From a virus, in the IMG/VR virus record IMGVR_UViG_3300021085_000090, positions 1 through 36,782 of that record: a stretch of DNA of 36,782 nt; one strand, given 5' to 3'. Of this stretch, positions 1-32,771 are shown in pieces. Position 1 is the first letter of the stretch. Every line of letters starts with the position of its first letter. The notes beneath the pieces are model-generated. The model saw only the letters and a program-made list of their open reading frames with translations. It was not told where the DNA came from and did not search any database. The position numbers were made by a program, and so were the translations under genes.

Positions 1-484
1 TACCGTGTGTCTTGTCAAAGTATCCGTTCTCCATGCCACCAACCCAGTGACTCTTGCCTACACATACTAGATTGTCGTTATCATCAAACTTCCAATGCTG
101 GAATGGTGGAAAGTTTAGTTTAGTTTTATGATCTGCAACTGTTTTAGGATTCTTTTTACGTCCGGGTTCGTCTGGAACATGATCAAATGTCATAATACGA
201 AACACAAGGTCAGTTTTTTCAATTGTTCGATAGTCAACTTCAAATTCTGCTTGTTTTACTTTACGGCCAGCAGCCTTTGCTGCTTCGTATGCCTGAGACC
301 CTTGTTTCTTTGCTTTGTTTCTTTTAGCTTCGGCCACTGTTCTAATGTTTATTTTAGACAGTTCGGGAAGTATAATGTCATACAGTGTGTACTCTGGTGC
401 TACATAACTACAAAACGTACTTTTAGACTTGTGTATTTCGGATAACATATCCTTATTATTCAAATAATTTACTTTTCTTGCCAT
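1..484 (-). CDS. Conserved phage protein, 5' part only; possible late sigma-factor relative
   Basis: An open frame reads leftward from an ATG at 484 to the window edge (about 161 residues) with no stop. It begins MARKVNYLNNKD and has a lysine/alanine-rich stretch at about residues 50-75. A good Shine-Dalgarno (AGGAG, read on the minus strand, about 492-497) and a perfect host-type promoter lie upstream. From memory, proteins with this N-terminus are conserved in marine T4-like phages, and their C-terminal half, outside the window, resembles the T4 gp55 late sigma factor. The opening words NYLNNKD also echo NYVNNKE of T4 gp55. That link is recall plus weak similarity, so no symbol is given. 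It is the only clear minus-strand gene and is divergent from the tail block. A late sigma factor made early would fit its promoter. Confidence 0.8.
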   Translation of the reverse strand, partial: MARKVNYLNNKDMLSEIHKSKSTFCSYVAPEYTLYDIILPELSKINIRTVAEAKRNKAKKQGSQAYEAAKAAGRKVKQAEFEVDYRTIEKTDLVFRIMTFDHVPDEPGRKKNPKTVADHKTKLNFPPFQHWKFDDNDNLVCVGKSHWVGGMENGYFDKTHG

Positions 485-505
485 ATTTTAAGGCTCCTTT
501 AGTTT

Positions 506-534
506 ATTATAATATACGCACATATATTTGTCAA
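506..534 (-). promoter_or_regulatory. Consensus sigma70-type promoter for the minus-strand gene
   Basis: Read on the minus strand, TTGACA (529-534) is followed after exactly 17 nt by TATAAT (506-511). Both hexamers match the bacterial housekeeping consensus perfectly. The expected start is near 499, giving a leader of about 15 nt that holds the Shine-Dalgarno and leads to the ATG at 484. Such promoters are typical of phage early genes read by unmodified host polymerase. Confidence 0.88.
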
Positions 535-541
535 CTAAATA
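534..541 (+). promoter_or_regulatory. T4-late-like box (ACTAAATA) before the gp48-like gene
   Basis: ACTAAATA differs from the T4 late consensus TATAAATA at the first two positions. With T4 spacing, transcription would start near 547, giving an 11-nt leader containing AGGAG (548-552) before the ATG at 558. The box abuts the -35 hexamer of the divergent minus-strand promoter. Similar boxes sit before other tail genes here, which supports the assignment. Confidence 0.5.
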
Positions 542-557
542 GTATATAGGAGTGAAC

Positions 558-1367
558 ATGGCTAATAACCCCAGACAATCTAATAACTTAGGAAATGTAT
601 CAGCACAAAACAGAACAACTTTTGGTTCTGTTGGGTCTCGCGACATTGTTATCACAAATCCAAACGATATTACAAGACAAAGACGCTTAAATAATTTGCC
701 AAATGGTGCAGAACCTAGTCAGCGTTTAGCACAAACTGCAACATTTTTACCTACCGACGATACACAACCGGATTGGCGTGTAAAAGTAAGTGTACCTACG
801 TTGTCGACCTATCGTAGCAGCAGAATTTTATCACCCTTGGCTACAACTGGATATAATGTTGTATTTCCTGTTACTCCTGTTATTACTTTTGTGACTAGTG
901 CCAGCTACAACGATATGACACCTGTACATAGTAATTATCCTTTTCCTGCATATAGCAGTAGCCGAACAGAGGATATTAATATCGCCGGCGCTTTTCCAGT
1001 ACAAACACAAGAAGATGGGCTATATTGGATAGCCGCAGTGCATTATTTCCGTAGTGTCACTAAAATGTTTTATGGAGATACCAGCGAAAAAGGTGCTCCG
1101 CCACCAGTTGTAAAGTTAAATGGATACGGAAGTTATGTTATGAATAACATTTCTGTAGTAATTACACAATTTACATTTGATTTGCCTAATAATGTTGATT
1201 ACATGCAAGTAGGAGCAACTGGTATTACTCCAGACAAGTATCAAATGGTACCAACAAACAGTACATTTAACATATCATGTAAAGTAGTACACAGTAGAGC
1301 AAAAGTTAGTGAATTTAGCATGGATAACTTTATTTCTGGCAACCTTGCTGATAAAGGATTTATCTAA
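558..1367 (+). CDS. gp48: Baseplate tail-tube cap / tube initiator, gp48-like
   Basis: 269 residues. In T4, gp48 and gp54 sit on the central baseplate hub and nucleate the tail tube; T4 gp48 has 364 residues, so this is a compact version. Recognisable features are a TRQRRLNNLPNG segment near residue 40, a DWRV strand opening the tube-like beta domain at about residue 75, and a conserved block with YFRSVTKMF followed by a proline-rich turn and LNGYG (about residues 160-195). The ATG at 558 is chosen over the in-frame GTG at 552 because AGGAG at 548-552 is correctly spaced for the ATG and overlaps the GTG. The stop overlaps the gp53 start by one base (TAATG). Assignment rests on recalled marine T4-like gp48 sequences and gene order; a gp54 role cannot be excluded. 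Confidence 0.75.
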   Translation: MANNPRQSNNLGNVSAQNRTTFGSVGSRDIVITNPNDITRQRRLNNLPNGAEPSQRLAQTATFLPTDDTQPDWRVKVSVPTLSTYRSSRILSPLATTGYNVVFPVTPVITFVTSASYNDMTPVHSNYPFPAYSSSRTEDINIAGAFPVQTQEDGLYWIAAVHYFRSVTKMFYGDTSEKGAPPPVVKLNGYGSYVMNNISVVITQFTFDLPNNVDYMQVGATGITPDKYQMVPTNSTFNISCKVVHSRAKVSEFSMDNFISGNLADKGFI

Positions 1368-1669
1368 TGGCACAATATGGTAAAACAAGTCCATGGGGCA
1401 ATACAGATTATAGTAAAACTGGTGAGCTAGATATACTTAGAATTCGACCAGTGCCTGCTGAAGACGATGATATATTATATACAATTGAAGCTCAGTACAC
1501 TTATCGACCTGATTTACTTTCTTTTGACCTTTACGGTACATCTAAACTATGGTGGGTATTTGCACAAAGGAACATAGATACATTAAAAGATCCTGTATTT
1601 GATTTTATACCTGGTACAAAAATATATTTGCCAAAATCTTCTTCTGTAAAAAAAGGTCTTAATTTATAA
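1367..1669 (+). CDS. gp53: Baseplate wedge subunit gp53
   Basis: 100 residues, about half the length of T4 gp53 (196). gp53 joins neighbouring baseplate wedges around the hub and carries a LysM-like fold. The diagnostic C-terminal signature is clear: LYGTSKLWWVFAQRN, then a Lys-Asp-Pro turn, then FIPGTKIYLP, matching the family's pattern of LWW, N, DP and GT.IY.P. The N-terminal half is short and has the YTYRPDLLSFDLYG lead-in. Both ends overlap the neighbouring genes by one base (TAATG), so translation is probably coupled. Position between the gp48-like gene and the hub genes fits. Confidence 0.88.
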   Translation: MAQYGKTSPWGNTDYSKTGELDILRIRPVPAEDDDILYTIEAQYTYRPDLLSFDLYGTSKLWWVFAQRNIDTLKDPVFDFIPGTKIYLPKSSSVKKGLNL

Positions 1670-4005
1670 TGGCAATTGAAACAAACTCTTTACATCAGTT
1701 TAGTAGTTTTAACACTATATTCACGCTTAGTTGCTTAACTCGTGAAGAAATTGCAATGCCTAACGACACTTATCGTGTAAACGGCCCGGCAAATGTAATT
1801 TTTCAGAGTGGAGGTACTTCAACTAACAAAGTCACAACAGCATATGAACAAGCAATAGGCGGTAAACTTGAATATTATGTAGATAATGTAATGATAGAAG
1901 CATTGTGTGTTCCAAATACAAAATCACGCAGTACAAATGCAACTTATATAGAATTTACTGTCACAGAACCATATAGTATGGGTTTATTTTTACAAACTTG
2001 TCAGTTAGCTGCTACAATGAGTGGCTTTTCTAATTATCAACGTGCTCCGTATATGTTGAGTATGGAATTTGTAGGTTATGATGATGACGGAGACATAATT
2101 GTCACAGAAAGCGGACAAAATTTACGTAGAGATGTACCTGTTAAACTTACAAATATAACTTTTGAAGTCAATGAAGGCGGAACTACTTATAATGTAGAAG
2201 CAATGCCTTGGAATGAACAAGCATATTTAGATGATAAAACTGGTGTTCCTGTTGATCTTAGTATAAAAGGAAATAGTGTAGAAAAATGTTTGCAAAGCGG
2301 CGAACAAAGTTTGTGTACAATAATGAATGGATACTTTGAAGAACTAAGACAAGAAAATAAATTATTAGAAGCTGATGAATTTATTGTCACATTTCCAGCA
2401 GATATTTCAACAAAGTTTAATCCGGCACAAGCATCAAGTACAAGCGATGCTGGCGCAACAACTAAAAGCTCTAGTAGTAAAAGTGGAAGTAGCATTTTTG
2501 GTAAAATAGCAGCAGGTGCCGTTGGCGGCATTATCAGCGGCGGTTTAGCAGGAAACAAAAATATAGGACAAAATGCACTAGGCGGTGCTCTAGGCGGAGT
2601 ATTTGGCGGCGGTCTTGGAGGATTTGGCGGAGGTCTAATTGGAGGATTGCTTACTAATTTTAAAAGTGGAGACGTTCAAGGACTATTTGAAGGTATTAGC
2701 GGCTTCCTTGGAGCACAAGCACCTCAAAACTTTGAAGGATTTCTAAGTATGATAACCGGACAAGTGCTTACAAAAAGCAGTATCGGAGAAAATCTAGCTA
2801 GAATTGCGCAAGATCCTGGTAGTTTAAATAATTTAGGCCAATCAGGTATTATTAATGGACACGAAGAACAAGGTAAAGCGCCTATGGCTCAAACTGGCCA
2901 AGTCTACGATAAGAAAAACAAAGTTATGACTAGAGGTAAAAACACTGTTAGCAATGATGAGCGTGTTTTTGAATATGGCTCAGGCACAAGTATGATTAAA
3001 ATAATAGAAGATATTGTTTTAACCAGCAGCTGGGCAAAAGAATTAAAAGATCGTGCTCCAGATGAAAACGGTATGGTACCTTGGTTTAGAATTGATGCAG
3101 AAACTTATTTAAAAGCCAATGCTGATCAAGAAAATGTGTACGGTGAGGATGCAAAAGTATTTCATTATAAAGTTGTAGAATACATGGTACACAGCAGCCA
3201 CTTACAAAGACCAGGAGATCCTGGCTTGAGTTATAATGCACTCCGTGAAAGCGCTAAAAAAGAATACAATTATATCTACAGTGGCGAAAATACAGATATC
3301 TTAAATTTTGATATACAATTTAATGCAGCGTTCTTCCAGTTTATACAGCCGGATTACGGACAAGGCAACTTTGATTTTAAAACAGGAGGATTGCAACAAA
3401 ATACTGTGCTAAAAACTCCCGAAACTTTAACAATGAAAACTGAAAATTCGGGTGCAAATAGTGCAACAGGTTTAACAGTTCAAAGTTTTAATCAAAGTAC
3501 TAGTACCCAAGGCGGCGGAGGAGCCGGAATAGATAATAGTAAAATACGTTGGGCAAGACAATTTCACGATAACATCCTTGGATCGGGTAGCATGGACTTG
3601 GTAGAAGTTGATTTAGAAATATTTGGCGATCCGTATTTTATTGTAGACAGCGGAATGGGCAATTGGACAGACTCACCTGGCGACTTAAACAGTACAGCAA
3701 ACGGGCAGATTGATTATCAGCGTAGTGAGTCAGATGTTTTACTAAATTTTAGAACTCCTATAGATTATAATCCTGAAACAGGAGGAATGATATTTCCAGA
3801 AGACACAATTCCTGTACAACAGTTTAGTGGACTTTACAGAGTCACAAAAATAACAAACGAAATTAGAGGAAATCAATTTACTCAAACATTAAAACTTCTG
3901 CGTAGAAGAGGGCAACCGGAAGATACTAATACAAGTGGCGACAATCCTGTAAAAATTAAGGATAGTACTGACGCACAAAATATGAATTCGCCATACAAAG
4001 GTTAA
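1669..4005 (+). CDS. Large baseplate hub-type structural protein (gp27-like)
   Basis: 778 residues in the hub position directly before the gp5-like spike gene. Residues 1-245 form a mixed beta-rich domain. Residues about 250-275 are a Ser/Thr/Ala linker, and 275-330 are an extreme Gly/Ala hydrophobic stretch with many GxxxG spacings. Residues 430-560 (SMIKIIEDIVLTSSWAKEL, then WFRIDAETYLKAN and YKVVEYMVHSS) resemble, from memory, hub proteins of marine T4-like phages that stand for T4 gp27 (391 residues). Residues 610-750 form a final beta domain with a conserved LEIFGDPYFI. T4 gp27 is a trimer capping the gp5 spike. The large size suggests fusion of hub functions. Start overlaps the gp53 stop (TAATG). 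Structural role is confident; the gp27 equivalence is inferred from position and similarity. Confidence 0.65.
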   Translation: MAIETNSLHQFSSFNTIFTLSCLTREEIAMPNDTYRVNGPANVIFQSGGTSTNKVTTAYEQAIGGKLEYYVDNVMIEALCVPNTKSRSTNATYIEFTVTEPYSMGLFLQTCQLAATMSGFSNYQRAPYMLSMEFVGYDDDGDIIVTESGQNLRRDVPVKLTNITFEVNEGGTTYNVEAMPWNEQAYLDDKTGVPVDLSIKGNSVEKCLQSGEQSLCTIMNGYFEELRQENKLLEADEFIVTFPADISTKFNPAQASSTSDAGATTKSSSSKSGSSIFGKIAAGAVGGIISGGLAGNKNIGQNALGGALGGVFGGGLGGFGGGLIGGLLTNFKSGDVQGLFEGISGFLGAQAPQNFEGFLSMITGQVLTKSSIGENLARIAQDPGSLNNLGQSGIINGHEEQGKAPMAQTGQVYDKKNKVMTRGKNTVSNDERVFEYGSGTSMIKIIEDIVLTSSWAKELKDRAPDENGMVPWFRIDAETYLKANADQENVYGEDAKVFHYKVVEYMVHSSHLQRPGDPGLSYNALRESAKKEYNYIYSGENTDILNFDIQFNAAFFQFIQPDYGQGNFDFKTGGLQQNTVLKTPETLTMKTENSGANSATGLTVQSFNQSTSTQGGGGAGIDNSKIRWARQFHDNILGSGSMDLVEVDLEIFGDPYFIVDSGMGNWTDSPGDLNSTANGQIDYQRSESDVLLNFRTPIDYNPETGGMIFPEDTIPVQQFSGLYRVTKITNEIRGNQFTQTLKLLRRRGQPEDTNTSGDNPVKIKDSTDAQNMNSPYKG
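2491..2658 (+). other. Glycine-zipper-like hydrophobic segment in the hub protein
   Basis: Codes for residues 275-330 of the hub protein, nearly all Gly, Ala, Ile, Leu, Val and Phe, with dense GxxxG and GG pairs (for example GGALGGVFGGGLGGFGGG). This composition is typical of membrane-inserting glycine zippers and is flanked by polar linkers. It occurs in frame inside a single intact gene. Confidence 0.75.
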
Positions 4006-4007
4006 AC

Positions 4008-5696
4008 ATGGAAAAGAAAACAGTAAGTAATGAATCTCCAGAACAAAAACGTACAGCAGGCATAGCTGAACCTGCTAAAAATGCCGGCCCTTTTATTGCT
4101 CGTGTAATCAAGCATTCCGATCCTTATTATTTAGGAGGCTTGGAAGTTGAATTATTAAAAACTACAGAAGCAGGAAACATCGGCGAAACACTTGGTCAAA
4201 CAGCTATTGTTTATTATGCTAGTCCGTTTTACGGAGTTACAGGATCTCAGCATTTAGGTAAAAATGACAAATATAGTGATACACAAAAAAGTTATGGTTT
4301 TTGGATGGTACCACCGGATCCAGGAACATTAGTTCTTGTGACCTTTGTTGAAGGCAGCAGAGAATTTGGTTATTGGTTTGCTTGTATTCCTGAAAAAGGA
4401 ATGACATATATGTTGCCCGGTGGACAACCTGCAACTGAACAAACTTCAAATGCAACAGGCGATCTAAAAGGCAAAAAATTACCTGTTGGAGAATACAACA
4501 AAAAGATTACTAAACCGAGTACAAATAATGTTGTAAAATACAAAAGACCAGTAAACGATGATTTTGTTGATACATTAAAAGAACAGGGAACACTTGAAGA
4601 TGATATTAGAGGTATAACAACTACAAGTGCGCAAAGAGAATTTCCTAGTGCTGTATACGGATTTAGTACACCTGGCCCGTTAGATAAGCGTGGAGGATCT
4701 CCACAAGGTAGAATAGGTGTAAAAGAAAGTCAAGCAACTGTTCATGTCAATCGTTTAGGCAGTAGTAGTTTTGTAATTGATGACGGTGACGATAAGTTTT
4801 TACGTAAAGGATCTCCTGAAGATACTCCTTATGAATACCTAAACAAAGAAGCCAGCGAAGCAGGTGGTGATGTGACTAGACCTGCAAACGAGATGATACG
4901 CTTCAGAACACGTACTGGTGCGCAAATAATGATCAACACCAGCGAGGATTTAGTTTACATCAACAACAGTAGAGGTACTGCATGGATAGAAATGTCAAGT
5001 AATGGTAAACTTGATGTGTATGCAAAAGACAGTATTAGTTTCCATACAGAAACAGATTTTAACTTTGTTGCAGACAGAGATATTAACTTTGAAGCTGGTA
5101 GAAACATCAATATGATTGTTAATGAAAACATTTTTACAAGTTGCGGGTTGAATTATGAATTATTAGTGGGCGTTGATGGCAAACTAAAGTTTAAAAACAA
5201 TTTAGATACAACTGTTTCTAAAGATATGAAAACAACAGTGTTGAATGACAAACATGTATTAGTGACAAATAATTTATTTGAAACTGCACAGACCGATGTA
5301 AACATTAGTGCAGGCAATAATTTAAACTGGAGTGGCGCAGCAGGTGTAGGCGGATACAGTGGCGGAGATATGAAACTTACAGCAGCAGGTACAAGCAATA
5401 TTAAATCTAGTCATCATAAAGAAACAGCTGACCGTATCGATATGAATGGTCCGGCAGCCGCTGCCTCGGAGCCTGCACCAGAAGCATCAGAATCAGTTTT
5501 ACCTTTAAAAGCAAAATTTCCACAGCGTGTTCCACAACACGAACCGTGGCAAGGTCACGAAAATTGGAACCCATTGGAAACTGCTCCAGATAAAACAGAA
5601 GCAGTTGACACAGAAAGCCAAGATATACACATGGAAGAACGTCCTGTACATACAGATAGGACACTTATGAATGAATTAAAACCGGAGGATGATTGA
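4008..5696 (+). CDS. gp5: Central spike / baseplate hub gp5-like protein, without lysozyme
   Basis: 562 residues. T4 gp5 has an OB-fold, a lysozyme domain and a triple beta-helix needle. Here residues 28-140 match the OB-fold (ARVIKHSDPYYLGGLEVEL to the GFWMVPPDPGTLVLVTF and FGYWFACIP strands). Residues 240-475 give the beta-helix: short strand repeats such as INTSEDLVYINN, YAKDSISFHTETDFNF and DRDINFEAGRNINM. The stretch between them (140-240) is charged linker, too short for the roughly 165-residue T4 lysozyme domain and without a recognisable lysozyme signature. The C-terminus holds VPQHEPWQGHENW (508-520), which I recall from related marine phages, then an acidic tail. It starts 3 nt after the hub gene and ends overlapping the next gene. 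Confidence 0.82.
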   Translation: MEKKTVSNESPEQKRTAGIAEPAKNAGPFIARVIKHSDPYYLGGLEVELLKTTEAGNIGETLGQTAIVYYASPFYGVTGSQHLGKNDKYSDTQKSYGFWMVPPDPGTLVLVTFVEGSREFGYWFACIPEKGMTYMLPGGQPATEQTSNATGDLKGKKLPVGEYNKKITKPSTNNVVKYKRPVNDDFVDTLKEQGTLEDDIRGITTTSAQREFPSAVYGFSTPGPLDKRGGSPQGRIGVKESQATVHVNRLGSSSFVIDDGDDKFLRKGSPEDTPYEYLNKEASEAGGDVTRPANEMIRFRTRTGAQIMINTSEDLVYINNSRGTAWIEMSSNGKLDVYAKDSISFHTETDFNFVADRDINFEAGRNINMIVNENIFTSCGLNYELLVGVDGKLKFKNNLDTTVSKDMKTTVLNDKHVLVTNNLFETAQTDVNISAGNNLNWSGAAGVGGYSGGDMKLTAAGTSNIKSSHHKETADRIDMNGPAAAASEPAPEASESVLPLKAKFPQRVPQHEPWQGHENWNPLETAPDKTEAVDTESQDIHMEERPVHTDRTLMNELKPEDD

Positions 5697-6901
5697 TGTT
5701 TCAAGCAATCGGGGGCGAACTTAGAAACGCAGCACTTAGAGAAAGTAATAGGGTATTAGGAGATGCAGTAAATCAACTAGCAAGAAAAAGTCCTATACCT
5801 ACTATAGCAACTGTAGGTGCAATACAAGGTGGATTACAAGGTGGGTTGCAAGGAGCAATAAGAGGAGCAGCACAAGGAGTATTATCTGCAGGAATATCTC
5901 AACTGCAAAATCAAATTCCACCGCAGTTTGCACAAGCTGCTGCTGCATTACAAGGTATTGCAAACCCAGCTGCATTTACTCCAGGCGGGTGGATAAACCC
6001 GGATCAACTAGCTGCTGGGTTTACACAACCTTTTGGTCAACAGCAACAAAGAGGTACTGCAACTACAACGTATGCAGGAACTCCGGTTGCTGATAATCCT
6101 AGTACAGTTAGAACACAAATTGTTGACGCAACCAGCGGCGAAGTAAACCTTATCAAAGACAGTTTTTTACAAGGTTTACAAGGTGGTCTAAGTAGTATTA
6201 TAGGACAAGGATTAAACAACTTGTTAGGAAGTTTGCCTAGCACGATGCAAAACTTATTAAGTTCTACAGGGTTAACTGGCGCACTTGGCAGTGCATTAGG
6301 CGCAATCGACGGTGCAATAGGAAAAGCCTTAGGCGGACTAGGAGATGCATTAGGAGACGCAGCAGGCAAATTAGCAAGTGGTTTAGGTTCAGCAATTAGT
6401 AGCATACCAGGTGTTGGCCCAGTGTTTGATGGGTTTACAAAAGGAATAGGCGACTTTACAAAAAACTTATCAAGTGCAGTAGACGGATTGCCTGTAGGAT
6501 TAAGAAGTGTTATAAGCGAAGCATCAGCTCAAGTTGGAGCAAATTTAATTGGCAAAGCACTGAACAGGCCAAATGTTGTAAAAGATGTAGGCAGACAAGT
6601 TGCAAATAACATAAGATTTAAAGAAAACCCTGCGACACAAGCAAATGCAATTGCTAGTGCAGCAAATTCACTTCACAAGAAAACATTTAGAACAACTGGA
6701 GATAAAACGTTTGCAAATGTAGCTAATGCTGCTAAAAAAACAGCTAAAAAGTTTGGTACAAAACTAGTAAAGAAAAGAGATTTGTACGGCTTTACTACTC
6801 AAGGACCAATCATTATACAACCAGTACAAAAATTTGTAAATGGCACACTTGTAAGTATTACACCAAAGGCAAACGATCTTTATGAAAAAGTTTTAGTATA
6901 A
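5696..6901 (+). CDS. Ala/Gly-rich structural protein of unknown role
   Basis: 401 residues, family not recognised. Residues 35-65 are GGLQGGLQGAIRGAAQG-type helical repeats. Residues 150-260 are almost entirely Gly, Ala, Leu and Ser with periodic hydrophobics, suggesting helix bundles or membrane interaction. The C-terminal 100 residues are basic (KKTAKKFGTKLVKKRD) and end in a beta-like segment. The ATG at 5696 is preferred to the in-frame TTG at 5693: GGAGG at 5684-5688 is 7 nt from the ATG, and the ATG overlaps the gp5-like stop. Its place between gp5 and gp25 and its composition suggest a hub-associated or tape-like component. No signal peptide or enzyme motif is visible. Confidence 0.75.
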   Translation: MFQAIGGELRNAALRESNRVLGDAVNQLARKSPIPTIATVGAIQGGLQGGLQGAIRGAAQGVLSAGISQLQNQIPPQFAQAAAALQGIANPAAFTPGGWINPDQLAAGFTQPFGQQQQRGTATTTYAGTPVADNPSTVRTQIVDATSGEVNLIKDSFLQGLQGGLSSIIGQGLNNLLGSLPSTMQNLLSSTGLTGALGSALGAIDGAIGKALGGLGDALGDAAGKLASGLGSAISSIPGVGPVFDGFTKGIGDFTKNLSSAVDGLPVGLRSVISEASAQVGANLIGKALNRPNVVKDVGRQVANNIRFKENPATQANAIASAANSLHKKTFRTTGDKTFANVANAAKKTAKKFGTKLVKKRDLYGFTTQGPIIIQPVQKFVNGTLVSITPKANDLYEKVLV

Positions 6902-6904
6902 ATA
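6897..6904 (+). promoter_or_regulatory. Perfect T4-type late promoter box TATAAATA at the gp25 start
   Basis: TATAAATA is an exact match to the T4 late promoter. It contains the TAA stop of the upstream gene (6899-6901). With T4 spacing the start site would fall at about 6909-6911, on the gp25 ATG (6909), and no Shine-Dalgarno lies between. It may therefore make a leaderless or nearly leaderless message, or be a chance match. Confidence 0.5.
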
Positions 6905-6908
6905 CAGT

Positions 6909-7346
6909 ATGGCTACAAATGAAAAACCACTTTATAAGAACGTGACAATATCTTCTCCTGGAGAAGAAGCACCAGTGACTTCTAAGCAATACAGGGGTAT
7001 CAGCACTGTAGCTAATCCACGTGGATTTAATCTATTTGATTTAGAAATAATCAAACAAGATGTTATAAACCATTTTCATATTCGCAAAGGCGAAAAACTA
7101 GAAAACCCTACATTTGGCACTGTAATCTGGGATGTATTATTTGAGCCATTTACTGAAGATTTAAAAGAGCTAATAATCAAAGATATTACCGAAGTAATCA
7201 ATTTTGATCCACGTATAAATGTAAATTCTGTCACAGTTGATACCTACGAAAGCGGGTTGCAAGTAGATTGCAGCATTACATACCTTCCTTACAGCATTAG
7301 CGAAACAATGCGTATAAAATTTGACCAAAACAACGGCCTTCTTTAA
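6909..7346 (+). CDS. gp25: Baseplate wedge subunit gp25
   Basis: 145 residues (T4 gp25: 132). gp25 (GPW_gp25 family) binds the gp6-gp7 wedge and helps start the sheath. The signature is plain: HFHIRKGEKLENPTFGT, then IWDVLFEPFTEDLKELI, then a conserved D-PRI-V segment and a C-terminal beta strand pair. The first 35 residues are a short N-terminal extension. No clear Shine-Dalgarno precedes the ATG; the exact late-promoter-like box 6897-6904 sits immediately before it. It is followed after 51 nt by gp6, its known partner. Confidence 0.93.
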   Translation: MATNEKPLYKNVTISSPGEEAPVTSKQYRGISTVANPRGFNLFDLEIIKQDVINHFHIRKGEKLENPTFGTVIWDVLFEPFTEDLKELIIKDITEVINFDPRINVNSVTVDTYESGLQVDCSITYLPYSISETMRIKFDQNNGLL

Positions 7347-7374
7347 ATACGCACATTATTACTTCAGGTAAATA
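7342..7374 (+). promoter_or_regulatory. Two late-like TAAATA boxes before gp6
   Basis: This 51-nt gap holds TTTAAATA (7342-7349, containing the gp25 stop) and GGTAAATA (7367-7374). The second, continuing as CACTGTA, gives an expected start near 7380 and an 18-nt leader with GAGGA (7386-7390), 7 nt before the ATG at 7398. The same TAAATACACT string recurs at 24584-24593 before another tail gene, which supports a real late promoter. Confidence 0.5.
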
Positions 7375-7397
7375 CACTGTAAAGTGAGGAATGGCAT

Positions 7398-10300
7398 ATG
7401 TCAACGACAGATAGGCAAAATCGACTTCTATTAGCAGAAGATTGGAAAGCAATATATCAAAGTTTTAAATACGCTGATTTTCAAAGTTATGACTTTGACA
7501 ATCTACGTAGAACAATGATTTCTTATATTAGAGAAAATTATCCTGAAGACTACAACGACTATATTGAAAGTTCAGAATATCTTGCACTGATTGATTTGAT
7601 TGCATTTTTAGGTCAAAACCTAGCCTTCCGCACAGACCTAAATGCTAGAGAAAATTATATCGAAACAGCAGAACGTAGAGAAAGCATTCTCCGTTTGGCA
7701 AGATTGATTAGCTATAATGCAAGTAGAAATACAACTGCAAATGGCTTACTAAAAATTGATAGTATAAGTACAACCGAAGATGTGTTTGATGCAAATAATA
7801 ACAATCTTAGTGGACAAACTGTACTTTGGAACGATGCAACAAACAGTGACTGGTATGAGCAATTTATTAAAATAATGAATTCTGCTCTACCTGCAAATTC
7901 ACGTTTTGGACGTCCTGTAAAAAAATCTACAGTTGACGGCATTATAACTGAACAATATAGATTTAATGGAACAAACACTGATATTCCAGTATTCAGTTTT
8001 ACTAAATCAGTTGACAGCAAAAGTAGAAAATTTGAAATTACTAGTGCAGGTATTGACACTGGAGATAATTTCATTTATGAAGAAGAACCGTTTCCAGGAA
8101 ACAAATTAGCGTTTTTATACAGAGACAGCGGACAAGGTGCAGGCAGTGCAAACAGTGGATTCTTTTTACACTTTAGACAAGGTACTCTAAAAAACAATGT
8201 TTTTACTATAGATAATCCTGTTCCAAACACAACTGTAAATATTGATACAGATAATATAAATGAATCTGACGTTTGGTTATACAAACTAGACAGCAACGGC
8301 ACTGAGCAAGATATTTGGACAAAAGTTAGCAATATCGAGGGCAACAATATTGTGTACAACAGTGTTGAAAAAGGCGTCAGAGATATATATGGTGTACTCA
8401 GTAGAATTAGCGATCGTATAAGTTTAATTTTCAGTGATGGTGTTTTTGGCACATTGCCAAAAGGAAGTTTTAAAGTTTATTACAGAACCAGTGCTAATGA
8501 ACAATATAAAATTAATCCTGCAGACCTAGTAGGAATACAAATACAAATACCTTACCTAAGTAAAAGCGGTACAACAGAAACGCTAAATTTAGTTTTAGAT
8601 TTACAAGTTCCTGTATCTAATGCAGATACTAGTGAAACAAATGAAAGTATTAAAACAAATGCACCTAGTACGTTTTACACACAAAATAGACTTATTACAG
8701 GCGAAGATTATAATATCGGTCCTTTAGGAGTAAGTCAACAGATTATTAAAACAAAAAGCATTAATAGAACTAGTAGTGGAATAAGTCGCTATTATGATTT
8801 ACGTGATGCAACTGGCAAGTACAGCAACACATTAATGTTTGGTGATGACGGTAGCGTTTACAGTGAAGATTTAGCAAAGAAATTTAGTTTTGGATTTACA
8901 ACAAGAACTGACATCGAAGCAGTGATTAATTCAAAAGTTTTAGAAATTGTTAAACATACACAAACAAAAAACTTTTATTACAAAAACTTTGATAGAAATA
9001 TTAGTGTAGAAGACTTGAATTTTACTTGGAACCCAACTACTAATGATACCAATCAAAGTTCAGGTATATTTCAAGATCAATTTAACATTCCTGTTGCAGT
9101 TAGTAGTTTTACAGCTAACACAATGAGATTTGTAGCACCTGGTAGTTTAATTAAATTTATTGCTCCTACTGGTCAGTATTTTGATAAAAACAATAAATTG
9201 GTTGTAGGCAATCCTACTAAGCTAGGAGACAAAACTTATATTTGGACAAAAGTTGTAAGTGTTTTTGAAAATGGTACAATACAAGACATTGATAGCGATT
9301 TAGGACCTGTTATTTTAAATGATAATATTCCGTCAGGTGCGCAATTATCTGAGATTATTTCAGTATTAAATTTAAGCATTGTAGCAGATACATTATCTCA
9401 AATGGTGGATCAAGCATTTAGTTATAAAACTTTTGGATTGCGTTATGATGTAGAAACTTCGAATTGGAAAGTTATTACATCAACAAACTTAGATAAAACT
9501 AGTGCATTTAGCACAGGTAGAGCAGGTGATGCTACAGGCTCAAATCAAGACAGTAGTTGGATTTTCTTGTTTGAAACCAACGGAGAAACTTATACTGTGA
9601 CTCATCGTGGATTGAGATATGTGTTTGAAAGCGATGAACAAATACGTTTCTACTTTGATGGCAATGATAGAATATATGATAGCAAAACTGGAAAAATTGT
9701 GACTGATACAATTGATGTATTAAGTAATAATAATGTTCCTGATAGTTTAACAAATTTTACACAAGATTATAAATTCCAAGTTATTTCTTCTTATAGATCA
9801 GTTGCAGGTTATGTTGACAGTAAAAAATTAGAAGTAGGATTTGTTGACACAGACGGCGACGGTGTGATCGACGATCCAGATGTGTTTACACAAATTGTTG
9901 CACCTGATTATTTGCCAGATACAAAATATATATTTGCAAAAAAAGTGCTAATGAACGATGTTGAAACATTTGAATATGCAAATGCAGAAACAAATAACAT
10001 TATTGTAAAAAATACAGAAGCTGCTGTTGGAGCATTTAGCAATTACACCGGCAATGAAGTTTTTTATATAAGCAGCACAGATGTGTTTAAAAAAATTAAT
10101 TCGACAATGACAAGATTGGAATTAGATATAAATTGGCGTGCTTACAAAGGCAGAGATAGTTTACGATTTAATTACAGACATGCAGCAGCAGAAAATCGTA
10201 GAATAGATCCTAGCAGCAGCAACATTATTGATTTGTATCTTTTAGAAAAAACATATGATACAGAATTTAGAAAATATCTTATTGGCAATTTAGATGAAAA

Positions 10301-10862
10301 ACCGTTGCCTCCTAGCAGTGATAGTTTATTTTTAAGCTACGGACAAGATATTAAAAAAATTAAAAGTATTTCCGATGAACTAATATATCATCCTGTAAAA
10401 TACAAACCGTTGTTTGGTAGTTTAGCAGACGAAGATTTACAAGCAACTATAAAAATAGTTAAAAACTCAGGCAGAGTTGTAAATGATAATGACATAAAGT
10501 CTCGAGTTGTTGATGCAATAAATGAATATTTTAGTTTAGAAAATTGGGACTTTGGTGAAACATTTTATTTTAGTGAATTAGCAGCATATGTTATGACACA
10601 GGTTTCTCCAGATGCAGCAAGTATAGTTTTAGTACCAAAAAGCGAAACACAAGTGTTTGGTAGTTTGTACGAAATAGTTTGCGAAAATGATGAAATATTT
10701 GTAAATGCAGCAAATGTTTCTGATGTAGAAGTTATTGATAGTATTACTGCCGCACGTTTAAAAGCCACAGGTACAGTTATAACTAGCGACGAAGTGTTGA
10801 ATGTAGGAATACAAAGCTCAGTCACAAATACAAATATTATTACCGAAGGAAATGATTACTAA
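7398..10862 (+). CDS. gp6: Baseplate wedge subunit gp6, enlarged
   Basis: 1,154 residues against 660 in T4. gp6 dimers form the inner ring that links wedges. The N-terminal 120 residues are characteristic (YADFQSYDFDNLRRTMISYI, then ESSEYLALIDLIAFLGQNLA and RTDLNARENYIETAERRES). A baseplate-J-like block with APSTFYTQNRLITGEDY lies near residues 415-440. The C-terminal signature NEYFSLENWDFGETFYFSEL (about 1045-1065) is intact. The extra length lies mostly between about 500 and 1000 and includes a calcium-loop-like DTDGDGVIDD at 817-826. The ATG at 7398 is used because GAGGA is 7 nt upstream; the ATG at 7391 opens only a 7-codon frame. The stop overlaps the next start. Confidence 0.92.
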   Translation: MSTTDRQNRLLLAEDWKAIYQSFKYADFQSYDFDNLRRTMISYIRENYPEDYNDYIESSEYLALIDLIAFLGQNLAFRTDLNARENYIETAERRESILRLARLISYNASRNTTANGLLKIDSISTTEDVFDANNNNLSGQTVLWNDATNSDWYEQFIKIMNSALPANSRFGRPVKKSTVDGIITEQYRFNGTNTDIPVFSFTKSVDSKSRKFEITSAGIDTGDNFIYEEEPFPGNKLAFLYRDSGQGAGSANSGFFLHFRQGTLKNNVFTIDNPVPNTTVNIDTDNINESDVWLYKLDSNGTEQDIWTKVSNIEGNNIVYNSVEKGVRDIYGVLSRISDRISLIFSDGVFGTLPKGSFKVYYRTSANEQYKINPADLVGIQIQIPYLSKSGTTETLNLVLDLQVPVSNADTSETNESIKTNAPSTFYTQNRLITGEDYNIGPLGVSQQIIKTKSINRTSSGISRYYDLRDATGKYSNTLMFGDDGSVYSEDLAKKFSFGFTTRTDIEAVINSKVLEIVKHTQTKNFYYKNFDRNISVEDLNFTWNPTTNDTNQSSGIFQDQFNIPVAVSSFTANTMRFVAPGSLIKFIAPTGQYFDKNNKLVVGNPTKLGDKTYIWTKVVSVFENGTIQDIDSDLGPVILNDNIPSGAQLSEIISVLNLSIVADTLSQMVDQAFSYKTFGLRYDVETSNWKVITSTNLDKTSAFSTGRAGDATGSNQDSSWIFLFETNGETYTVTHRGLRYVFESDEQIRFYFDGNDRIYDSKTGKIVTDTIDVLSNNNVPDSLTNFTQDYKFQVISSYRSVAGYVDSKKLEVGFVDTDGDGVIDDPDVFTQIVAPDYLPDTKYIFAKKVLMNDVETFEYANAETNNIIVKNTEAAVGAFSNYTGNEVFYISSTDVFKKINSTMTRLELDINWRAYKGRDSLRFNYRHAAAENRRIDPSSSNIIDLYLLEKTYDTEFRKYLIGNLDEKPLPPSSDSLFLSYGQDIKKIKSISDELIYHPVKYKPLFGSLADEDLQATIKIVKNSGRVVNDNDIKSRVVDAINEYFSLENWDFGETFYFSELAAYVMTQVSPDAASIVLVPKSETQVFGSLYEIVCENDEIFVNAANVSDVEVIDSITAARLKATGTVITSDEVLNVGIQSSVTNTNIITEGNDY
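9846..9875 (+). other. Calcium-loop-like motif in gp6
   Basis: Codes for DTDGDGVIDD (residues 817-826): Asp at positions 1, 3, 5, 9 and 10, Gly at 4 and 6, Ile at 8. This is the DxDxDGxxD loop of EF-hands, dockerins and thrombospondin type 3 repeats. It lies in the region of gp6 that T4 gp6 lacks. Confidence 0.6.
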
Positions 10863-13800
10863 TGGCATACGAAGACAATCAAAACGAATATCCTGTTCCA
10901 GGACGTAATGATAGTAAAAGAACTACTTCTTCATTATTACCAAGATACTTTCGCACTGATACAAACAAGAAATTTATTGGTAGTACATTAGACCAATTAA
11001 CATCACCCGGTGTAGTTGAAAAATTAAATGGATTTGTTGGTAGCAGAGAAGCTAAAGCAGCAATTGTTGATGACAACTATATTTCTGATGTAAGTAAACA
11101 ACGTGAAGATTATCAATTAGAGCCATACACAATTATTGAAGATAATATTGGAAATATTGAGTTCAATGCTGATTATATTGATTTGCTAGGACAGATCGAA
11201 GCATTTAACAGCACAACTAAAAACCATGATAAACTTTTTGCACAAGAATTTTATGCGTGGAACCCACATATTGATTTTGATAAATTTACAAATTTCCGTG
11301 AGTATTATTGGTTGCCTAATGGTGCCCAAGAAGTTCCAGTAAGAGGAAATGGCGTTGAAGTTGTAAGCACATACAAAGTCACAGTTGAATTTGATGGCGG
11401 GGATCCAGCATTTGTATTCTCTCCAGATGGAGTCACACGTAATAAAAAGCTAACACTGTACAGAGGACAAACTTACATCTTTGAAGTTGATACAAAAGGA
11501 CATCCTTTTGGTATTGCTCTTAGTAGATTAAAAAATGTACCTTATGCAGATAGTGCAGTATATGCAGAAAATCTTTATTTAGATGGTGTTGAAATTACAG
11601 AAGAATACGACGATACTGTAAAATTTAGAGATGATTATATAGATAATGGATTTATTGAAAAAGGTACATTAAAATTTACTGTACCTACAAACGCTCCAGC
11701 TGAATTGTACTATATAAGTCAAAACGACATAAATGTCAGCGGCAACCTAAACTTATTTGATATAGAAGAATCTACTGAAATAAATGTAGTAGAAGAAATA
11801 TTAGGAAAGAAAACTTACAAAACATCAGATGGCTGGGACTTTTCAAATGGTATGAAAATTTATTTCCAAGGAAATGTCACACCTGCATCTTATGCACAAG
11901 GTTTGTACTATGTTGAAGGTGTTGGAGAAAGTATCGAATTAGTTGCAGTAAAAGATCTGCAAGTTCCTGCAATTTTTACACAAGATACACAAGTTCCTTT
12001 TGATATTAATCCGTTTGATAGAGTACCATTTGGCGATGCTAAAAGTTTTGCTGGCACAAAGGACTATGTTTGTATTAACCGTAGAGACAAAAGTAAAAAT
12101 CCATGGAGTAGATACAATAGATGGACACATCGTAGTGTAATTGAAAAAAGTGCAGAAATTAATAATCAGCCTATTGAGATTTTTGAAGACCTAAGAGCAC
12201 GTAGACCTATTATTGAATTTGAACCAAATTTACGTTTGTTCAATCATGGTAATAGTGCAAAAGCCGCGGTAGACTTAGTAGACACATTTACACAAGATGT
12301 TTTTAGTACAATCGAAGGTAGTGTTGGATACAACGTTGACGGCATTGATTTGGCAGACGGTATGCGTGTATTATTTACAGCAGATCCTGATAGCCTAGTA
12401 AATGGCAAAATATATGAAGTAAATTTTATAACACATAATAATAATTTACAAATTAGTTTAACAGAAACTACAGATACAATGCCTGTAGAAAACGAAACTA
12501 TTCTAATTTTAGATGGCGATGTAAATGCTGGCTGCATGTACTGGTATGATGGCATTGTGTGGAACAAAGCACAAGATAAAACTGGATTAAATCAGTCACC
12601 TAGATTTGATTTGTTTGACAAAGACGAAAATAGTATTGGCGATAGTAATGTTTACGATAGTACAGAATTTGTAGGAAATAGAATTTTTAATTATCGTGTC
12701 GGCGAAGGCGCTAATGATCCAGAACTTGGATTTCCTTTAACATACAAAAACTTTGTTAACATTGGCGATATTGTTTTTGATTTTTCATTATTGGAGAAAA
12801 AATACAATTACAAAGTTGACAATGAGTTTGTTAAAATTTCAAGTGATACACTATTTTTAAAGAAATACACAAATGAAAAAGATAGCTTTGTAAATGCATG
12901 GAAAAAAGCAACAATTAAATCTCAGCAGTTTGTAGTACGAAAATTTACAGGTACAGAGTTTACAAATAATCTACCTATAGATGTTTACAATAACAGTGCA
13001 GATTTACAAGACTTAAAAGTAAAAGTGTATGTAAATAGTTTGTTTCAAACACCAGATGTTGATTATGTTCTAACAAATAACAACCATTTTAAAAATATTG
13101 TTTTTACAGATGATTTAGAATTTGAAGATATAGTTGTTGTAAAAACACACAGCAACGCTGATAAAAATGCAAACGGATATTATGAGGTACCTTATAATTT
13201 AGAAAGAAATCCGTTAAACAGTAATATTACTGAATTTACATTAGGCGAAGTTAATGATCATGTTGAAGGACTGATTAGTGAGCTCAACGGATTCAACGGT
13301 TTACAACCAGGTGTGAGCAATCTTAGAGACTTAGGCGATGTAGCAGGATTTGGTAGAAAATTTGTACAACATAGTGGGCCTATTAATCTAGCAATGTATA
13401 ATCTAGTATCTAAAGATGCTAATGTTATCAAGGCTGTTAGATTTGCATCTAATGAATATCAAAAATTCAAAAGACAATTTATTCAAATAGCAACTGATGA
13501 TTTTTACGAAGGTACAGCTAAAGAACACGTTGATTATGTTTTTAATACACTCAATGAAGATAAAGTTCAAACTATGAATTTTTACAGCACTGATATGGCC
13601 GGCACTGGCGGCAGTGTTGAAATTGAATATGAAGTCTTTGATAATAGATTAAAGACATATGCATTAAGCAAAGTATTTCAAAAAAATGTAATTAGCAATA
13701 CAGCAGTTTACATTTATATTAACGATGAGCAACTTGTACATAATACTGATTATACATTTACAGACACAGGGTTTGTTAGTATTATAAAAGACCTAAACAA

Positions 13801-16800
13801 TGGCGACATTATTAAAATACAAGAATATGCAAATACTGAAGGAAGTTTTATTCCTCCAACACCTACAAAGATTGGATTATATCCTGCATACAAGCCTGAA
13901 AAGTTTTTAGATACAACATACCAAGTGCAATACGATGAAAACGGTAATGAAATCCGAGGTACTGGACCGTTAAATGTTATACGTGGACATGACGGTAGTA
14001 TGATGGTTGCGTATGACGATTATCGTGATGATTTGATTCTCGAGCTAGAAAAGAGAATTTACAATAACTTAAAGATTACATACGACACGGACATTTTTGA
14101 TATCCATGATGTAGTAGGTGGGTTAAGTAGAGACACTAAAGTGTCAAACAGTGACATTAATAATATTACTATCACTGATTTTACAAAATGGCTAGAAGTT
14201 GCAAAAATTAATGATTATACTGACAACAGTTTTGTTAGACTAGATGAAAGTTTTACTTATAATTATAGTCAAACTGTAAACCTAAACAATCAAAATGTTC
14301 CTGGATTTTGGAGAGGTGTATATATTGAAGCATATGATACAGACCGTCCGCATACACATCCATGGGAAATGTTAGGATTTAGTTCTCAACCAACATGGTG
14401 GGAAAGTGTTTATGGCCCTGCTCCTTATACAAGTAATAATTTAATATTATGGACAGACATTAAAAACGGCACAGTAAGAGAGCCAGGAAAACCTGTAAGT
14501 ATTCGAAGCAAGTATGTAAGAAGTAAATTGTTAAGTCACATACCGGTAAACGAAAACGGACAACTACTATCTCCACTTGAAAGTGGTTATGTACAAAATT
14601 TCAGTTATGCGGTGCAAAGAAATATTCCTTTCAAGTTTGGAGATCATGCCCCAGAAGAAACAGCATGGAGACGCAGTAGTGATTATCCATTTGCATTATT
14701 AGTTGCAATGATTTTATTACGTCCAGCGCATACTATTGGTATAGGATATGATAGATCACGTATTAGCAGAGACAAAGCAGGTAATTATGTCTATACAGAT
14801 ACGGATAAAAGAATCACTACAAAGGACATTGTATTTCCAAAAATAAATGGAAACATTTCAAGCGGTTTAATTAACTTTGTATCAGAATATGTAAGTTTAA
14901 ATAACGAATTTACTTACAGTAAATATATTAGTGATATTACAAATATCAAAAATAAATTAGGATTTAAACTTGCAGGATTTGCAAATAAAGAAAAATTAAA
15001 ATTAGTTCTTGATAGTAAAACACCTTTGAATCAAGGAAATGTTTTTGTACCATTTGAAAATTACAACTTAGAATTTAGAAGCAGCGCACCTCAAAAGGTA
15101 GTGACATACAGTGGTGTGATTGTAGAAAAAACTACTAAAGGATTTAAAATTAGCGGCTACGATACAACACAGCCGTATTTTTCATATTATGAAGCAATAG
15201 AATCATCTAACGATCCAAATATTAACGTAGGCGGCATCAGTGAAAGTTTTGCTATATGGAGCGAAAACAAAACATATATAGCTGGAAAAATAGTAGAATT
15301 TGAAGATGTATATTATAGAACAAAAGTCAATCATACATCTACTGATACGTTTGATGATACCAAATATACTAAATTGCCTAAACTTCCTGAAGTAGGCGGA
15401 GTTAATGCAAAATTTAGAAAACGCTATAAAGATACTCCTTCGCAATTAGATTACGGTACTATACTTGTAGATATACAAAGTGTTGTAGACTTCTTGTTGG
15501 GTTATGAAAAACATATGATCGACGAAGGATTTGTGTTTGACTATTTTAACAAACAAACCGAAGCTATAGAAAACTGGAAATTAGCAGCAAAAGAATTTAT
15601 GTTCTGGACTTCGCAAAATTGGGCATCTAGTAGTATTATAACTCTAAGTCCATCGGCAAATAATGTTTTATTTTCAAAAGAATATTATGTTGTTGATGAT
15701 GTGTTTGATAGCTTTTATAACTATCAAATTTTAAATCAAAACGGTAAGAAATTAAATAGATCATTTTTTAATGTATATAGAGATAATATTAATAACTTCC
15801 AATTAACTTCAACTGAAGATGGAATATTTTTATTAAAATTACCACTTATACAAAAAGAACACGTAGTGTTTATTGACAACACTACAGTATTCAATGATAC
15901 AATTTATAGTCTAAGTACCGGATATAGACAGCAGCGTTTAAAGGTAGTAGGTTATAGAACCGACGAATGGAACGGTAGTTTAAATATTCCAGGATTTTTA
16001 TATGATGATGCACGTATTACAGAATGGAAATCATATAAAGATTACACTGTTGGCGAATTAATAAAGTTTAAAGAATTCTATTATGCTGCACAATTTACAC
16101 ACAGCGGTACTGAAAACTTTGACTTTGATTTGTGGAATCGTTTGCCTAGTAAGCCTGAAAATCAATTACAGCCAAACTGGGACTATAGAGCAAATCAGTT
16201 TGCAGATTTTTACGACTTAGATACTGACAACTTTGATGCAGAACAACAACGACTAGCACAACATTTAATCGGTTATCAAAAACGTGGTTATCTATCTAAT
16301 ATTATTCAAGACGATGTTAGTCAGTACAAATTCTACCAAGGATTTATTCAAGACAAAGGTACTGCAAATAGTATAACTAAATTGTTTGATAAATTAGGCA
16401 GTGCTAATAAAGATAGTATTGAATTATTTGAAGAATGGGCAATACGTGTTGGACAATACGGAGCACTAAAAAGTTTTGATGAAGTTGAATTTAAATTAGA
16501 TGAAAAGCAATTTAGAATTGAACCTCAAACTATGCAGCTAGTAAATCAAGTAGATCAAACAAGAACTGATCTAGTTTACCAGTTTCCAAAATCTGATGTA
16601 CTAATTGCTCCAGCAAATTATGACACAGGATTTTTACCAACTCAAAATGCAGTAAATGAATATACTAAAACAGCAGGATATGTAAAATTAGATCAAATTA
16701 ATTTCCTTGCAAAAACAATTGAAGATATTTTAACGGTAGATATTGATTCAGTTGATATTGGAAATTATGTATGGGTCACAAAGGATTTAAATACCTGGGC

Positions 16801-19800
16801 AATGTATAGGCATATGATATCTGATATTTCTATTACAAAAGTAGAAAGCACAGAACTTGGCTTTAAAATGTATTTTAACAAACCTATTGAGTTTGATGAA
16901 GATTCGGTTATTGGTGTAAACAATATACATCCTGATGTAAATGGGTTTTGGTTGGTCACTAATGTGCAAAGAAATATTGTTTACAATACAGACGGTACAA
17001 TTTCTCAGCCAAATATAGAAATTGAAACTGATAATCCTATTAGCGAAAGTGTTATAGATGTAGAAGATAGTACACTAGGTATTGTATCTGAATTCTGTAT
17101 ACGTAGAGTATCTGAGCCATCAGAGTCTAATTTAATTTTACAAGCATATGACTTAAATGCAAACGATAGAATTTGGATAGACGATATCGGTGATGGCGTA
17201 AGTGCAGTGTATGACAGAAATGTAATACGCAATAAATTACAAGATATTACTGCACCTGAGGAAAACAGCAACGAATACGGTAGAAGTGTTTCTGCAAGTT
17301 TTAATAATACTATAATGGCAGTTGGCACACCTGATATTGATGACGGTAGAGTTTACATTTATACAAGAAGCAGTGATGCTATTCCGTTTACAGTTAAACA
17401 AACATTACAGCCTCAGCCTCAATATCATAGTAAAGGTGATTTTGGTAGCAGTGTTTCAATTACACCAAACGGACAATATTTGTATGTTGGTGCTCCTACT
17501 GCAAGTAATGTTAAATCAAGATACAAAGGTGCATTAGATCCTTTACAAGAATACCAGCAAGCTGATATTGTTAGCAGCAAAGGTGTGCTATGGCAGGCCT
17601 TAAGAACTGTGACAGTAGAAAGTAGCACAATTAATTTAGAAAGCCAGGACTGGCAGCGTGTAAACATGATTACAGCAGATCCGTCGGCAACTAATCTGGG
17701 ATACAACGATCAAGGTGTTGTATACATTTACAAAAAATTAATAGATAATAGTTTTGAGCTAATAGATATTATATGCAGTAGTGCGCCTGGCGAAAATGAA
17801 AAGTTTGGACTTGGTATAAAAGCAGTTAGCCCAGGTGACTTTGATCATAGTTTATATGTAAGAAGTTTAGCCGATAATGGTAGAGTTTATATTATTAACA
17901 ATCTCGGTGTCGATAATATAGAAGAATATGAATATAATATTGATCCTAGTTATAGAGGCGAATGGCAAACAATTGCAAAATACATCGAGAATGAAATTGT
18001 ATACTACGACGGTGAACTATATCAAGCTAACCAAACAGTGTTTGCAGGCAATACTTTTGATACAGATTCTTGGAACCTTTTAGATACATTTGTAGATTAC
18101 ACTGGATACATAACTAGCGATCTAACTAGCACTACTGATCTTTACAACGAGGATAGTAGCGGATTTGGATTAGCAACAGATATTGGTGTCACATATGATA
18201 TAAGTGCAAATGGCGAAGTAATTGCACTATCTGGTATTTTAGCCGGCGACGAATACAGAGTTGCAATTTACAGAAAAGAAAACAACAGATATGTATTTGA
18301 TCAAAACATTGATGGTCCAGTTGATGATGAATATTTTGGTTATAGTATTTCTTTAAATAGTGTAGGAAACAAACTTGCTATTGGTGCTCCTAATTCAAAA
18401 GATAAAGGCATTTTAAATGGTAAAGTTTATGTTTATAAACTAGCTAATCAGCAATTTGAATTAGATCAACAATTATATGCACCCGATGGTGAGAAAAACA
18501 ATAGATTTGGTGTTTATGTAGTTTTAGATGATAACAGACTTGCTGTCACAAGTGAAAACGGCGATACTAATTTTGCATTAGAATTTGACAACGGAGAAAC
18601 AATATTTGATAATGCAGCTACTAATATTGTAGATACTGTAGAAGATAATAACCAAGTTTATATGTTTGAAAATATAAGCAATAAATTAATCTACTCAGAA
18701 AAATTATATTCAAGTACTGACATCTCCGGAGCAAAAAATGCATACGGATATCTAAATAGAAATCATTTGTATGTTGTTGCGCCTGCACAGGACTTAACAA
18801 ATATACTTGCAGATAGCACAAACAATAAAGGAATTATACAAGATTATAGATCAGATATTGGCAAAACTGCATGGACTATAAACAGCAGTGTAGATCCTTT
18901 TGTAGATTTAAGCAAAATCAAAGGCGTGTGGCTATATGATACTAAGACTAAAGATCTAATTAGTTATATAGATTATATTGATCCTATACAAGGACGTATT
19001 GCTGGGCCAGCAGAACAAGAATTAAGTTATAAACTGTATTATGATCCAGCAGTTTACAATACAGGATCAACTAACACAGGTGATAAAGATTTATGGTCAA
19101 CTAATTATGTTGGAAAATTGTGGTGGAATCTTACTACTGTAAGGTGGTATAATCCATACACTGGAGATATCCAGTACAAAACAAATAATTGGAACCAGTT
19201 AATTCCAGGATATGATGTTGACATTTATGAATGGGTTGAAAGCAACTACTTACCAAGCGAATGGGATAGTATTGCCGATACAACTGAAGGTTTATCAGAA
19301 GGTATAAGTGGTTTAAGTTTATACGGAGACGAAACATATACAATACAAAATTCTTATGATCCAATTACAGGTGTAGCAGCATCTAGATATTATTTCTGGG
19401 TAAAATCTAAAACAACTTTACCTAACACATACGGTAGAAAAATTTCAGCGTTAGATGTTGAAAACTTAATTAGAGATCCTGCAGGTCAGGGATATAGATT
19501 TGTAAACTTGTTTGATAGTAAAAACTTTGCCTTACACAATGTAAGAAATTTAATTAAAGACAAAGATACTGTATTACATATTGATTATTATACCACTGAA
19601 GATCGTGATGATAATATTCATAGTGAATATCATTTGTTAACTGAAGGGTTGGCAAGTAGTAAACCTAACAGCGATCTTGTTGCCAAGTGGGTAGATAGTT
19701 TAGTTGGTTATAACGAACAAAATATTCAGTTGCCTGATACTAGAGTTAGTATTGCAAGAAGATTTGGTATTTTAAACGAACCAAATCAAAGTATGTTTGT

Positions 19801-31593: not shown

Positions 31594-31622
31594 TTGACAA
31601 ATATAAAGTTAAGCATTATAAT
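31594..31622 (+). promoter_or_regulatory. Consensus sigma70-type promoter between the structural paralogues
   Basis: TTGACA (31594-31599), exactly 17 nt, then TATAAT (31617-31622). Both hexamers are perfect. The -35 starts on the base after the upstream stop codon. The expected start near 31629 gives a leader of about 13 nt containing GAGGA, ahead of the ATG at 31642. Confidence 0.88.
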
Positions 31623-32742: not shown

Positions 32743-32771
32743 TTGACAAAATCTTAAAAATACTATATACT
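32743..32771 (+). promoter_or_regulatory. Sigma70-type promoter of the glycosyltransferase/radical SAM operon
   Basis: TTGACA (32743-32748), exactly 17 nt, then TATACT (32766-32771), one mismatch from TATAAT. The expected start near 32778 leaves about 13 nt with GGAG (32781-32784) before the ATG at 32791. No other promoter is evident before the overlapping genes that follow, so it probably drives them all. Confidence 0.83.

Follow-up and report, generated by a model that had tools for sequence, protein, structure and literature searches.

Late transcription in T4 and related systems

Phage T4 provides the classical example of late transcription by a phage-encoded sigma factor whose promoters lack a -35 element. 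The T4 late promoters contain the box TATAAATA, and no conserved sequence is found in them at -35 (PMC2988020). By the T4 convention this box covers positions -13 to -6, and the late motif published for the T4-like Aeromonas phage Aeh1 is CTAAATA, beginning at -12 (PMC1524935). For phage CBB, one of the Rak2-like jumbo phages, ATAAATA has been predicted as the late motif before structural genes (PMC5259590). Overlapping divergent promoters are known from plasmid pLS20, where Pc and Pr have been reported not to be occupied by polymerase together (PMC4207663).

The locus described in this work lies at the beginning of a stretch of viral DNA of 36,782 nucleotides (the window; IMG/VR record IMGVR_UViG_3300021085_000090), where a late sigma gene and a baseplate operon diverge, and it can be compared with each of these systems. 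As in T4, the sigma factor shows homology in sigma region 2 and carries the motif YxNNKxLL, the box has the same predicted spacing to the start site and structural genes follow downstream; the sigma factors of the marine clade to which the window belongs differ from T4 gp55 in having about 120 extra residues and no obvious clamp-binding C-terminus. Besides, some promoters of these marine phages have a further element upstream, roughly from -33 to -24, whereas T4 shows no conservation at -35 (PMC2988020). The box CTAAATA is identical in sequence to that of Aeh1, although in the clade of the window boxes with C at -12 occur beside ATAAATA and GTAAATA boxes; neither an upstream element nor an overlap with a sigma promoter is mentioned in the accessible part of the Aeh1 study (PMC1524935). 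In the Rak2-like phages CBB and GAP32 the gene order is the same, a gp55-like gene lies beside a predicted promoter and ATAAATA is the predicted late motif (PMC5259590), but the -35 of the sigma promoter is of the TGAAACG type, the late box is located 4-5 bp away and no upstream element was seen. pLS20 also has two overlapping divergent promoters and provides a precedent for exclusion; it adds a repressor/activator and DNA looping, whereas at the marine locus the product of one promoter is the sigma factor expected to read the other (PMC4207663). A search of the literature, limited to open-access text, yielded no description of the interleaved arrangement presented below.

Architecture and conservation of the promoter pair

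The initial annotation had described a perfect host-type promoter on the minus strand whose -35 stands directly against a CTAAATA box on the plus strand, the two being regarded as abutting divergent early and late promoters. Direct reading of the minus strand gives TTGACA (529-534), a spacer of 17 bp and TATAAT (506-511), which constitute a promoter of the host sigma70 type, presumed to act early; the plus-strand letters at these positions are TGTCAA (529-534) and ATTATA (506-511), the respective reverse complements. The CTAAATA of the plus strand (535-541) adjoins the minus-strand -35 directly, and when the late box is taken as the 8-mer ACTAAATA (534-541, plus strand; -13 to -6) both elements overlap by 1 bp, the -13 base of the box pairing with the first T of the minus-strand -35. 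This reading and the conservation in relatives confirm the promoter and its contact with the box. The description of both promoters as abutting, however, needs to be modified: the direct contact is correct, but a second element of the late promoter, ATACGCACAT (514-523, plus strand), lies inside the early spacer, so that the promoters are interleaved across the 36 bp from 506 to 541, within the 73-bp gap between the sigma gene and the baseplate operon.

The predicted start sites, at about 499 on the minus strand (from the spacing to the -10) and at 547 on the plus strand (box end + 6, from the T4 convention and the peak of box-to-ATG distances at 4-5 nt in relatives), are consistent with the promoter geometry. 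The Shine-Dalgarno sequence of the sigma gene is AAAGGAG (494-500, minus strand) and that of the structural gene is AGGAG (548-552, plus strand), the start codon of the latter gene being most likely ATG 558 rather than GTG 552.

A promoter scanner applied to positions 1-20000 gave the minus-strand promoter 12/12, the top score. Two other perfect TTGACA-17-TATAAT sequences are present in the window, at 22317 (inside a giant open reading frame) and at 31594 (in an intergenic gap), and a perfect sigma70 promoter by itself is therefore weak evidence; it is because of conservation that chance is ruled out for the promoter pair. In an unselected set of 80 informative loci, made up of the window and 79 relatives from a protein search (L042 was left out as too short) and not chosen by motif, TATTTA(G)TTGAC plus a 17-bp spacer to a -10 was found in 80/80, the -10 being TATAAT, TATTAT, TAAAAT or TATATT, always at 17 bp. 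An enlarged set of distinct informative sigma upstream regions, which is partly motif-selected, contains 144 matches among 145 regions, and in the sole non-matching one (L329, with TATTTATTGCAT) the promoters still overlap. At the junction base, 140 of these regions have G and 2 have T; the base is missing from 2 others and from L329, and no region has a longer junction. The distances from the box and from the -10 to their start codons vary among the marine relatives. Since the internal spacing of each promoter is fixed and both use the same bases, the junction cannot drift.

When seven long contigs were searched, the composite motif was found once each in five of them (98-169 kb), its exact form being missing from the other two. 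A chance origin of the composite was rejected, given that in motif-selected contigs 102 of the 117 distinct occurrences are located at the sigma/baseplate gene pair and only 15 are unrelated chance sites.

The late sigma factor

The open reading frame of the minus strand (2-484), cut by the end of the window, encodes the N-terminal 161 residues of a protein of about 275 aa and matches phrog_12791, annotated as sigma factor for late transcription, along its entire length (E 4.3e-34). Related proteins occur, among others, in PA5oct, Atu_ph07, GAP32, CBB and Munch, and the complete proteins of the marine clade have 272-283 aa. The frame in the window stops before sigma region 2; homology to gp55 and fold were analysed with full-length relatives. 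A profile of ten family members matched T4 gp55 (7d7c_F, E 3.2e-9), the N-terminal YxNNKxLL motif included, which is the outcome of the profile search against gp55 proposed in the initial annotation. All ten members also matched phrog_234, late sigma transcription factor (best E 4.8e-25; L002, E 1.8e-21). An AlphaFold2 model of a sigma relative (pLDDT 88), compared with the PDB by Foldseek, had 7d7c_F as its best match, with an rmsd of 1.5 A over 89 columns, 29% identity and a probability of 1.00, the E value being only 9.8e-3. These matches to phrog_12791, phrog_234, the gp55 profile and the gp55 fold bear out what had been put forward conditionally, namely that the minus-strand gene is a relative of late sigma factors; judged from homology and modelled structure, it is a gp55-type late sigma factor.

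Inspection of the family alignment by eye revealed no obvious hydrophobic/acidic, T4-like clamp-binding motif at the C-terminus, so the late activation of this sigma factor may differ from that of T4. Searches for the clamp families PF02916 and PF09116 gave no matches, controls having shown that such searches are uninformative. In L002, the residues that are extra with respect to T4 gp55 (about 120) correspond to positions 25-150 approximately, between the N-terminal motif and sigma region 2, and they are predicted to be well folded. Two relatives of the PA5oct clade carry an intein-like insertion in the sigma gene (L274, 2441-4348; L278, 2501-4414), placed within sigma region 2 between NWRGY and TYLDEM, where the inserted sequence begins with C and ends with GN.

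The baseplate operon and the late box

The plus side had been taken for a tail block, and the genes identified there agree with it. The first gene of the operon (558-1367, once its start was moved from GTG 552) encodes a virion structural (baseplate) protein (phrog_12050, E 1.6e-41), and the plus strand further encodes a gp53-like baseplate wedge subunit (1367-1669; phrog_7145, E 4.4e-22), a gp5-like baseplate hub subunit (4008-5696; phrog_13211, E 6.4e-42), a protein with a gp25 domain starting at ATG 6909, a gp6-like baseplate wedge subunit (7398-10862; phrog_10646, E 3.7e-294) and tail fibre proteins. Inside the tail block there is also one open reading frame of 4574 aa (10862-24586). Farther along the window, promoters of the TTGACA-17-TATAAT/TATACT type at 31594-31622 and 32743-32771, each just before an ATG, mark where the late tail block gives way to genes with weak or no PHROG matches.

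A TAAATA box before late and structural genes, which is a trait of T4-type late promoters, is present in these phages. Upstream of the genes of the window and two long relatives, TAAATA occurs 54 times in sense and 19 times in antisense orientation (binomial p 5e-5). In 1717 genes of clade contigs, a sample that includes related phages, so that its counts are not independent, and a minority of unrelated contigs fetched by motif, TAAATA lies 4-5 nt before the ATG in 116 cases (57 + 59), followed by few cases at 6-12 nt and a hump at about 15-27 nt; eight permuted hexamers gave in the same genes at most 8 cases at 4-5 nt combined. This positional signal near start codons, together with the identical published motif of Aeh1 (PMC1524935), upholds the earlier assignment of CTAAATA as a late-type box. 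For boxes of the 4-5 nt class, transcription is predicted to start at the ATG or right next to it. This supports a promoter function of the box and leads to the prediction that many late messengers are leaderless, among them that of the gp25-like gene of the window, whose box TATAAATA (6897-6904, plus strand) is located 4 nt before ATG 6909, and that of a tail gene with TAAATATTAGTATGG.

An element upstream of the late box

Read on the plus strand, the sigma promoter spacer contains ATACGCACAT (514-523), of the form ATACGYASWT, at a distance of exactly 12 nt from the TAAATA that follows. This 10-mer recurs on the plus strand at 7347-7356, again 12 nt before a TAAATA box, that of the gp6-like gene (7369-7374), and the chance of such a run was estimated by simulation as 2.5e-5 per pair of boxes. 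In relatives, 20 non-composite boxes have TAC at the distance of the element, compared with 0-7 boxes at other distances; 19 of the 20 belong to gp6, and when the gp6 promoters are aligned, most of them contain the element or a close variant. Viral contigs were also scanned with ATACGYASTT-N12-TAAATA, requiring a base other than C at -12 and thereby excluding the sigma/baseplate composite; the 51 sites obtained at gp6, 28 at another tail gene (with the box mostly 5 nt before the ATG) and a few others represent a few promoters seen across many related phages, not many independent ones. Most other late boxes have no such element. The presence of the element at a -35-like position of some late promoters departs from the absence of a conserved -35 that characterises the T4 type.

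A role of the element as part of the early promoter was considered and rejected: GTA is missing at that position in 27 of 31 strong sigma70-like matches, three of the four matches that bear it are sigma promoters themselves, and gp6 promoters have the element without any divergent gene. GTA being rare at other sigma70-like matches, and the element being found with late boxes, it goes with the late box. A dyad operator was also discarded, as AACTACGTAGTT is a perfect palindrome in a few loci and most are asymmetric. The late promoter, as far as it can be read from the sequence, appears to be bipartite and interleaved with the early one. It is possible, as a tentative reading, that ATACGYASTT, as a -35-like element, is read along with TAAATA, either by a gp55-type sigma factor that has an additional domain or by a partner of it, and that, with this late promoter interleaved with the early promoter of its own gene, the sigma factor would directly repress itself while activating the tail genes.

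Alternatively, ATACGYASWT could be an operator by which a separate phage regulator, either an activator at about -30 or a repressor, acts on both promoters, the element then not being a core part of the late promoter. Such a role would suit its occurrence at only a few tail promoters and not at most late boxes, as well as its sequence variation among phages, and the distance from the element to the -10-like box resembles the spacing of the T4 MotA box. Nevertheless, the fixed distance of 12 nt to the late box fits a -35-like contact equally; we regard the operator as rather unlikely.

Related phages outside the marine clade

The pairing of the sigma gene with the baseplate operon extends to PA5oct, Atu_ph07, GAP32 and Munch. 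In the isolated jumbo phages examined, the structural genes diverge from the sigma gene and the genes after sigma, where named, are mostly of the gp47/gp46 type. A late-type box is kept on the structural side in PA5oct, a Vibrio phage, Phosso, GAP32 and Munch, where it stands 4 to more than 25 bp away from the sigma promoter; in the non-marine relatives as a whole, the gap is mostly of 4-40 bp or more. PA5oct-like contigs show sigma promoters of the TTGAC-17-TATACT type and late boxes at variable distances. In Atu_ph07, TATTTAGTTGAC and part of the spacer sequence are kept with no -10 at 17 bp, and its sigma promoter seems to have been relocated; in the Atu_ph07 locus L083, upstream of 3995, TATTTAGTTGACAAATTAACTAC is retained without a -10 at that distance. 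L254 and Atu_ph07 both have a late box and a similar element separated by an 11-nt gap, although their sigma promoters are elsewhere. Close relatives of the sigma factor were sought in IMG/VR, where the query from Atu_ph07 recovered only itself and that from Vibrio 2.275 recovered none. The promoter overlap is a trait of the marine clade, perhaps with an older origin. Because the gene pair is kept with separated promoters in related phages, an early-to-late handover does not depend on the overlap.

A proposed early-to-late handover

The best explanation of the locus, to which a probability of about 0.6 is assigned, is that the interleaved promoters serve a self-limiting early-to-late handover, whose timing, mutual exclusion and self-repression we infer. 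Early in infection, host polymerase with sigma70 would read the consensus promoter of the minus strand and produce the late sigma factor, with gp47 and gp46 downstream in relatives. Loaded on the polymerase, the late sigma factor would recognise the plus-strand box ACTAAATA, aided by ATACGYASWT 12 nt further upstream, and the late complex would then cover the early promoter, switching on the transcription of the tail genes and switching off the gene of the sigma factor itself.

Sequence and conservation establish that there are two promoters and that they interleave, that the minus-strand gene encodes a gp55-type late sigma factor, and that the upstream element is shared. The initial annotation had anticipated that polymerase on one promoter would cover the other, and this steric conflict follows from the geometry, positions 506-541 being common to both. 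To judge from known polymerase footprints, the two complexes would be unable to bind together, and polymerase carrying the late sigma factor is therefore expected to turn off the sigma gene as it begins to transcribe the tail operon. With both promoters on the same 36 bp, only one would probably be usable at a time, and mutual occlusion and self-limitation of the sigma factor would be its likely consequences.

The main rival to the switch is compact packing without regulatory meaning, that is, two independent promoters placed in a short gap, with a timing set by the availability of the sigma factor and of the host polymerase. The gaps are short, the overlap is dispensable for the gene pair, as the PA5oct clade, Phosso and the Vibrio phage show, the promoters of the same pair being separated by 4-40 bp or more in related clades, and the interleaved elements alone account for the fixed junction, their relative position being locked by the internal spacing of each. 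The fixed junction may thus reflect only the spacing rules of two promoters on the same DNA and not selection for a switch. However, no informative member of the marine clade has separated promoters, though the leaders vary in length on both sides, and the steric conflict is unavoidable at this distance; packing alone is considered unlikely. It is highly improbable that CTAAATA, despite touching the early -35 directly in the marine clade, is no promoter but belongs to an extended early promoter or forms a binding site located upstream of the -35, as TAAATA is found at fixed distances before many structural genes without an adjoining TTGACA, CTAAATA is the published late motif of Aeh1 (PMC1524935), and the late box is set apart from the -35 in L254 and in the PA5oct clade.

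The types of sigma factor and late box were already known from T4 and Aeh1; what is new here is ATACGYASWT in the spacer of the sigma promoter, 12 nt before TAAATA. A widespread marine relative appears to have gained a second promoter element at some of its tail genes, and the feedback control of its late sigma factor appears to be built into the common promoter DNA.
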